Under the pieces are notes generated by a model, which saw only the letters and a list, made by a program, of their open reading frames with translations, did no database searches and was not told the DNA's origin. Made by a program: the position numbers and the translations under genes. Shown piece by piece: positions 835 to 2,217 of a DNA stretch of 7,736 nucleotides. Positions within the stretch are counted from its first letter, which is position 1. The number at the start of each line of letters is the position of its first letter. This stretch comes from Candidatus Hydrogenedentota bacterium (lineage in GTDB: Bacteria > Hydrogenedentota > Hydrogenedentia > Hydrogenedentiales > GCA-2746185), in NCBI GenBank assembly GCA_012965445.1, contig DTSJ01000405.1:1-7736 (forward strand). Direction: 5' to 3'.

Positions 835-882
835 AAGTGATATTTTTTCTCGAGTGTGGAGAGTAATTTGGGCATACTTGTC

Positions 883-896
883 GTACATGGAAGTAT
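883..896 (+). promoter_or_regulatory. Predicted CsrA-binding hairpin in the fliW leader
   Basis: GTACATGGAAGT (883-894) matches the CsrA SELEX consensus RUACARGGAUGU at 10 of 12 positions. It can fold with bases 883-886 paired to 893-896 (one G-U pair), leaving the hexaloop AUGGAA with GGA in the loop, the arrangement CsrA prefers. It lies 23 nt upstream of the fliW ATG. A second GGA (907-909) is inside the Shine-Dalgarno GGGGAG. Two sites, one over the ribosome-binding site, is the usual geometry for CsrA repression. Binding is inferred from the pattern. Confidence 0.5.
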
Positions 897-913
897 TTTA
901 GGCAGGGGAGAGT

Positions 914-935
914 GCAGTATGCAGCTGGATACTGC
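914..935 (+). promoter_or_regulatory. Inverted repeat enclosing the fliW start codon
   Basis: GCAGTAT (914-920) and ATACTGC (929-935) are perfect complements around an 8-nt loop, GCAGCTGG. In mRNA this puts the first two bases of the fliW ATG (919-921) in a 7-bp stem, with GGA at 927-929 on the 3' edge of the loop. The stem could limit initiation or assist CsrA control. It may also be a coincidence of coding sequence. Confidence 0.35.
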
Positions 936-1398
936 TCGATTCGGAAAGGTCGAGGTGGATGATCAATCCATCATTACGTTTACTCAACCGATCATCGGGT
1001 TTCAGGAATTTCGTCGTTTCGTCATATTGGACGGACCAGACGACGGCGGTCTGAAGTGGCTCCAGTCTACCGATGCCGAGGACTTGGCCTTTATCCTGAT
1101 GGACCCCCGACAGGTCGTGCCGGACTATGAAGTCAAGCTGGGGGGGCATGAGTTGTCGGAGCTGGCGGTTGGTCAGGCCGACGAGCTGGATGTGTATACC
1201 CTTGTGGTGGTGCCCGGTGATCCCGCCCAGGTGCGGACAAATTTGAAAGCCCCTATCCTAATTAACCCAAACCAGCGACTCGGAAAGCAAACGATTCTAG
1301 ATAAGAGTAGTTATCCGGTTCAGTTTTTGTTGTCACAAGCCCCGCCTGGCGGCGCGGAACCTCTGGAGGAGGTGGACCATGCTCGTTCTAACGCGTAG
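919..1398 (+). CDS. fliW: FliW, flagellar assembly factor and CsrA antagonist
   Basis: FliW binds the translational repressor CsrA and is displaced by free flagellin, so flagellin synthesis follows hook completion; it acts in the cytoplasm. The product from ATG919 is 159 aa, close to family size. Conserved features are the opening [15 protein letters not shown], the F-x-x-P-I-I-G-F turn (21-28), the LQS segment at 48-50, an acidic mid-region, and the signature [18 protein letters not shown] (107-124) followed by SYPVQF (131-136). I chose ATG919, not an in-frame GTG at 856, because GGGGAG lies 8 nt upstream and homology begins here. The Pro/Glu-rich tail (about 140-159) extends into the next gene: the last 20 nt overlap csrA. 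The leader carries a predicted CsrA site and a hairpin over the start codon, suggesting CsrA feedback on its own antagonist. It ends in TAG, so UAG serves as a stop here. Confidence 0.95.
1359..1373 (+). promoter_or_regulatory. Hairpin over the csrA ribosome-binding site with GGA in the loop
   Basis: ACCTC (1359-1363) pairs perfectly with GAGGT (1369-1373), leaving the loop TGGAG. The 3' arm is part of the csrA Shine-Dalgarno (GGAGGAGG, 1365-1372, 6 nt before ATG1379), and the loop presents GGA. A third GGA follows at 1374-1376. This is the architecture of CsrA autoregulatory sites; the function here is inferred. Confidence 0.5.
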
Positions 1399-1600
1399 AG
1401 AAAACGAGAGTATCATGATCGGCGACGATATCGAGGTTAAGCTGCTCGATATCAAAGACAGCTAGGTCAAAGTAGGTATCATTGCGCCCTGCGAGGTAGC
1501 GGTGCATCGGCGCGAGGTCTATCTGGCAATCCAGGCGGAAAACCAGGAGGCGGCGGCTCCAACTGATTTGTCCGACATTTCGAATATCCTTCCGGGTTAG
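1379..1600 (+). pseudogene. csrA: csrA, carbon storage/flagellin translation regulator, interrupted by in-frame TAG at codon 29
   Basis: CsrA is a small dimeric RNA-binding protein that blocks translation of target mRNAs such as flagellin and is held inactive by FliW. The frame from ATG1379 reads [20 protein letters not shown], then KLLDIKDS, a TAG stop (1463-1465), VKVGIIAPCEVAVHRREVYL and AIQAENQEAAA, to a terminal TAG. The family has Gln at position 29 (G-[DN]-Q-V-[KR]), so one C-to-T change (CAG to TAG) explains the break. All key residues survive on both sides: L4, R6, V42 and R44 for RNA binding, and N55, which B. subtilis CsrA needs for FliW binding. Total length with Gln29 would be 73 aa, close to FliW-dependent CsrAs. 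As read, translation gives a 28-residue peptide lacking half of each RNA-binding surface. The start overlaps the fliW end by 20 nt and has a strong Shine-Dalgarno. A base-call error, a recent mutation or amber suppression could each account for it. Confidence 0.9.
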
Positions 1601-1605
1601 ATTCT

Positions 1606-2217
1606 ATGCAGATCACTGTCGATGATGAGAGCGGTTTCGTACTCAAGTCCAATCTGGCAACAGTCGGCGACGTTCTTCTCGAAGTGACTGATCATATTCA
1701 ATCGAAAAACCGCGCAATCCAGGCGATCATTGTGGACGGGAAAAATATTCCGCCGGAGGAGTTGACCCAGAATTTCGGAAAGACGCCCATCAGCGAAATC
1801 GACACCGTCGAGGTACGTTCGGCGGGACTTGCTGAACTCGTCGTCAGTACATTGGAGGAAATCGCCGAAGTAATTCCTGAGCTGCCGACTGATCGCTATG
1901 ACTTGGCGCAGATTCTAGCGGGTGACGATCCGGCATCCTGCTTTGCGCAATTCAACCAGTTTCTCGATATATGGGAAGTATTGAAGGATCGTCAGGCACA
2001 AGTGATCGGTTTGCTGAATGTCGAAATCGAGACTGCATCAGTCGGTGGGGCCTCCATTGCCAGACATAACGCCATGCTGAACGACTGCATACGGAACGCC
2101 CGGAAAAGCATGGAGTCGTCGGATTTCCCGGGCTTGTCTGATCTTCTTTCGCACGAACTCGCCGAAATGGCTGAGGTTGAAGAACAGATTATTGAGATGC
2201 TGAGGACGAAGATATAG
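1606..2217 (+). CDS. Uncharacterised protein, third gene of the fliW-csrA cluster
   Basis: I do not recognise a named family. The 203-aa, acidic product has no signal peptide, membrane segment or cysteine metal motif. Residues 1-75 (MQITVDDESG..., VGDVLLEVTDHI at 20-31, AIIVDGKNIPPEEL at 40-53, IDTVEVRSA at 65-73) alternate short strands with one helix, as in a ubiquitin-like beta-grasp fold. Residues 76-95 are a helix, and 110-203 look wholly helical, ending in a pattern (SMESSDFPGLSDLLSHELAEM, about 168-188) that resembles helical tails of flagellar-cluster hypothetical proteins. ATG1606 lies 5 nt after the csrA frame ends, with no strong Shine-Dalgarno, so translation is probably coupled to csrA; the csrA amber could therefore reduce its expression. 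The cluster suggests a flagellar or CsrA/FliW-related role, but that is inference only. It ends in TAG, 9 bp from the convergent recN stop. Confidence 0.8.
   Translation: MQITVDDESGFVLKSNLATVGDVLLEVTDHIQSKNRAIQAIIVDGKNIPPEELTQNFGKTPISEIDTVEVRSAGLAELVVSTLEEIAEVIPELPTDRYDLAQILAGDDPASCFAQFNQFLDIWEVLKDRQAQVIGLLNVEIETASVGGASIARHNAMLNDCIRNARKSMESSDFPGLSDLLSHELAEMAEVEEQIIEMLRTKI

Follow-up and report, generated by a model that had tools for sequence, protein, structure and literature searches.

An in-frame amber codon at the conserved glutamine 29 of csrA, beside an intact fliW, in a Hydrogenedentota contig

In published work on CsrA, residue R44 is described as critical for RNA binding (PMC7652899; PMC6692469) and the dimer as being formed of interlocking strands (PMC7652899). 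Residues V51 and N55 are reported to be critical for the binding of CsrA to FliW in C. jejuni (PMC7829508), and in B. subtilis, where fliW and csrA adjoin and their frames overlap, the pair is reported to be translationally coupled (PMC6529632). Lesions of csrA are also on record: Acinetobacter baylyi repeatedly acquired csrA mutations when evolved in the laboratory, among them an IS insertion by which the protein is truncated (PMC11426457), and deletion of csrA is reported to be feasible in L. biflexa (PMC8668096). The window, by which we mean the whole 7,736-base stretch of Hydrogenedentota DNA analysed here, likewise carries adjoining fliW and csrA genes, with an overlap of 20 bases, and has an amber codon within csrA. 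It resembles the A. baylyi and L. biflexa mutants in that the cell seems to survive with a damaged csrA, and differs from them in that the lesion is an early point nonsense codon in a member of an uncultured phylum, that fliW is kept, and that the case is known from sequence alone.

When the stop was read as X, the window CsrA matched PF02599 with 80.3 bits (cut-off 27) and TIGR00202 with 87.1 (cut-off 70.1), so that by profile it belongs to the CsrA/RsmA family. The RNA-binding residues R6, V42 and R44 and the FliW-contact residue N55 are all encoded, the last three of these 3′ of the stop, and together with the adjoining intact fliW they liken the gene to the FliW-controlled type. It departs from the family in the TAG at codon 29 and in a cysteine at the usually basic position 38. 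Because the amber codon deprives it of an uninterrupted full-length frame, the window csrA is to be regarded as an allele or a pseudogene and not as a working family member.

Glutamine occupies position 29 in 120 of 120 CsrA homologues listed (from 6038 matches, obtained with a query that itself carried Gln at 29). The initial annotation had reported that an amber codon one transition away from a Gln codon replaces this residue while R6, V42, R44 and N55 are kept, and our analysis bears it out on each of these points. Its description of csrA as otherwise intact holds for the frame, which is well kept: across the 30 columns that are at least 95% conserved among 119 homologues, the window departs at one, the stop itself. 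The description is slightly too strong with respect to position 38, which falls below the 95% threshold and hence outside the tested columns; in the 120 listed homologues this position is Arg in 90, Lys in 28, Gln in one and Cys in one (P0016). The features of the locus and of its surroundings are collected in the table.

Table. Features of the window, with positions counted from its first base
Feature	Position	Strand	Remarks
LUD-domain gene	162-773	minus	
fliW, 159 aa, ATG 919, intact	919..1398	+	Pfam FliW 121.4 bits
Ribosome-site-like GGAGGAGG 5′ of csrA start	1365..1372	+	read in the sequence; motif also 5′ of L001 csrA
csrA frame	1379..1600	+	73 codons + TAG; interrupted at codon 29
In-frame TAG (codon 29), family residue Gln29	1463..1465	+	window read as CsrA
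csrA codon 38, TGC = Cys; Arg/Lys usual	1490..1492	+	118/120 listed homologues Arg/Lys; P0016 also Cys
csrA codon 65, TCC = Ser; variable site	1571..1573	+	P0016, P0001 = Pro
203-aa gene with TAG stop, third in the fliW-csrA cassette	1606..2217	+	
recN, tlyA, ispF, ispD, PIN-TRAM protein	3′ of 203-aa gene	minus	
Purine nucleoside phosphorylase, cut by window end	last gene	minus	

The neighbouring genes show little departure from their relatives. At columns at least 95% conserved, the window departs at 0 of 45 in fliW (119 homologues) and at 1 of 143 in recN (118 homologues), and csrA is the only interrupted gene in the window, so that errors are not widespread in the contig. In its public version (P0241, 180 aa), the window FliW begins at GTG 856 (856-1398, plus strand). 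The 119 other listed FliW relatives have 148-170 aa, which fits the ATG start given in the table, and judged from these lengths the GTG start is likely a wrong start call.

No family was found in Pfam or NCBIfam for the 203-aa protein, the confidently predicted structure of which (mean pLDDT 90.8) combines an alpha-beta part at the N-terminus with a bundle of helices at the C-terminus. Relatives of its gene are present in 44 of 68 genomes of the phylum and in 42 of the 45 that carry csrA (missing from G002, G063 and G008; fragments in G031 and G054). The gene begins 5 bases past csrA with no obvious ribosome site there in the window; many relatives have a purine-rich ribosome site ahead of it. 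Given the close spacing and the lack of an obvious site, we speculate that the stop in csrA might also lower translation of the 203-aa gene.

The age of the stop can be judged from close relatives. P0016, a CsrA encoded on a 10,634-base contig, has Gln29 and shares Cys38 with the window; apart from position 29, residue 65 is the sole difference in the 61 residues predicted for it. The RecN P0121, from a contig of equal length and origin and hence, we infer, from the same one, is identical to the window RecN at 548 of 555 residues (7 differ; 99%). Glutamine 29 is also present in P0001, a 73-residue CsrA 97% identical to that of the window. The best RecN match among genomes, L001 (genome G001), is only 67% identical; between the csrA genes of the window and L001, 23 of the 30 differences in codons 30-58 and 12 of the 18 in codons 59-73 fall at third codon positions. 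Since the differences beyond the stop are mostly at third positions and the sister strain has Gln29, the stop must be of very recent origin or else an error, two of the possibilities raised at the outset. The initial annotation had named close relatives with glutamine in otherwise identical sequence as evidence that would refute it. P0016 is nearly such a relative, falling short at residue 65; it argues against a conserved readthrough element or recoding signal, and leaves a private, recent nonsense change and an error as the readings between which to choose.

The distribution of csrA across Hydrogenedentota bears on the same question. The gene was matched in 45 of 68 genomes, once in each, which makes a second csrA in the host unlikely, and in 0 of these 45 is there a stop inside the matched CsrA domain. 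Codon 29 was read in 44 of the 45 copies (that of G002 was missed by the pattern) and is CAG in 31, CAA in 11, AAG in one and AAA in one; compared with these copies, TAG is peculiar to the window. Relatives of CsrA are encoded also on five viral contigs (L199-L203), at 42-61% identity to the window CsrA.

All four of csrA, fliW, flagellin and FlhA occur in 43 of the 68 genomes, and none of the four in 18. The four genes thus agree in their presence or absence in 61 of the 68 genomes, and a strain that had lost csrA only would be out of the ordinary. Of the seven remaining genomes, G014 and G044 carry flagellin but neither csrA nor fliW; flagellin is absent from G008, and FlhA from G056. In G058 (L120, C533) fliW is present and the contig stops directly after it; in G031 (C91) and G054 (C597) the 203-aa gene is represented by its tail alone, as would be expected if contigs broke at the cassette. 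Because contigs end, or appear to end, within the cassette in these three genomes, the absence of csrA there is probably an assembly gap, and we found no other clear case of fliW without csrA among the 68 genomes.

One can envision several explanations for the amber codon. The reading that we favor is that it is a recent, private loss-of-function allele of csrA in one Hydrogenedentota strain, and we hold this to be probable, though by no means assured. It is consistent with Gln29 in P0016 and with Gln or Lys in the 44 phylum copies, and the csrA mutants of A. baylyi provide a precedent. The unusual Cys38 is present in P0016 as well as in the window, so that csrA may by now be under weaker constraint in this species. 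Against this reading stand the reliance on a single base of a single contig and the absence of any stop from the CsrA domain in the 45 genomes that carry the gene; Cys38, moreover, is a single position, and position 38 (K38) is not mentioned in the accessible portions of PMC7652899 and PMC6692469. The main rival, to which we assign a lesser yet substantial probability, is that csrA is whole in the organism and that the T at 1463 stems from a mistake in sequencing or assembly, or from a minor read variant that entered the consensus. An error would account for everything with one transition, and it agrees with Gln29 in the nearest relatives, with the lack of decay after the stop and with the rarity of interrupted csrA in the phylum. 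It is less easily reconciled with the uninterrupted state of the other genes in the window and the almost untouched conserved columns of fliW and recN. Furthermore, 121 codons of the window are one C-to-T or G-to-A step from a stop, of which csrA holds 2 (3 with codon 29), which makes csrA an infrequent target for a random error of this kind, even if the case was selected for its oddness. Relative to the sister strain, the amber and Ser65 would both be C-to-T changes on the plus strand if the prior codons were CAG and, for residue 65, CCC or a similar one, the comparison being at the protein level; the RecN differences are mixed and include one T-to-C on that strand. The differences are too few to claim C-to-T hypermutation or DNA damage. 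In classical lacI work, the inner C of CCAGG reportedly is a hotspot of mutation at methylated cytosine, and the site at codon 29 would be CCAGG if the ancestral codon was CAG. This is not telling, given that 17 of the 31 CAG copies in relatives also lie in CCAGG. Counts of CCWGG against a first-order model were 9 versus 10.8 in the window, 2 versus 8.8 in L001, 15 versus 15.3 in L002, 81 versus 37.1 in L003 and 30 versus 28.6 in L012.

Pyrrolysine use and amber suppression share with this locus an in-frame UAG and a frame that is kept downstream, and two further scenarios build on this likeness. In one, the stop is real but tolerated, UAG being read in part by a suppressor tRNA or owing to its context, so that some full-length CsrA is made. 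The kept frame agrees with this, as does one of several flagellin copies of G010, which also has an in-frame TAG (motif ELAV*AANGT). In that gene (minus strand, C52:16894-17310, within L121 = C52:14500-19500) the frame is kept on both sides; a neighboring G010 flagellin copy is whole, and this TAG is the only stop among the flagellin matches listed. Several observations nevertheless render readthrough improbable. The stop is not conserved in the sister strain, and the RNA after and around it folds no better than shuffled sequences (z 0.33). No CUA anticodon was seen in 86 tRNA predictions, some of them repeated, from 64 loci of genomes G001 and G010; these loci cover all 66 tRNA matches, 23 in G001 and 43 in G010, and with only 23 matches G001 is probably incomplete. 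The window itself yielded no tRNA in a tRNA search and no Rfam match at gathering scores. Finally, fliW, the 203-aa gene and csrA at its own end all terminate with TAG. The use of TAG as a terminator also stands against the other scenario, namely that UAG is recoded in the lineage and read there as pyrrolysine or, after a general reassignment, as Gln; for this, only the open frame on both sides of the stop speaks. In L001, fliW and csrA are closed by TAG codons whose locations correspond to those in the window, so UAG is in use as a terminator; reading the TAG of the 203-aa gene would add 126 sense codons, in keeping with the extension of more than 100 codons that had been put forward when general reassignment was called unlikely. 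The PylS C-terminal model found no match in the 68 phylum genomes (E 1e-10 or better), whereas the Methanosarcina acetivorans control was found. We consider pyrrolysine use or general reassignment very improbable, and already close to refuted.

Considering these results, we regard the window csrA as a private amber allele due to a single base, most likely a genuine and recent loss of function. Under this reading, which presupposes that the T at 1463 is real and that the window strain is flagellated, the Gln29 codon would have become a stop by a single transition in a lineage with flagellated relatives. Only the first 28 residues would be translated, and V42, R44 and the FliW-binding helix would be missing from the product, which would not be expected to form the interlocked dimer. 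Because R44, V51 and N55 are encoded 3′ of codon 28 and the dimer is built of interlocking strands, the 28-residue product should be inactive. In a strain without CsrA, flagellin and other targets would no longer be repressed by it, and FliW would be left without this partner.

A broader hypothesis is that csrA is being lost repeatedly in one Hydrogenedentota clade in which fliW and the third cassette gene are kept. We regard it as unlikely. Its components are the stop in the window, Cys38 in the species, and P0111, which has R44W and a probable N-terminal lesion. Position 44 is Arg in 119 of the 120 listed homologues and Trp in P0111, whose 90% cluster comprises two contigs and two member sequences, R44W being read from one sequence. 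P0016 and P0111 are the only listed homologues that begin at Met13, the other 118 of 120 having the full N-terminus; a contig end (P0016) or the choice of start call (either) could explain this. The FliW P0245, from a JGI contig of 4,217 bases like that of P0111, ends in HARPNA, so that csrA codons 1-6 would be readable there if, as we infer, P0245 and P0111 share a contig; the lesion in P0111, if any, would then affect the ATG or some part of codons 7-12. Against erosion, each odd form is a single sequence, and the other close relatives, P0001-P0015, look whole. Single departures from conserved columns occur in 10 more homologues (27 columns and position 38 tested). Erosion of csrA in this clade beside an intact fliW is, as read from these sequences, suggestive though unproven.

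What the finding means depends on which reading holds. Should the T at 1463 be an error, the lesson would be no more than that a single wrong base can give a gene the look of recoding. If csrA is being lost repeatedly in the clade, FliW and the 203-aa protein would have work that is independent of CsrA, and flagellin would be controlled without CsrA. If the base is real, this would be a natural CsrA-null strain that retains fliW, and it would offer a system in which to ask what role FliW has without CsrA.
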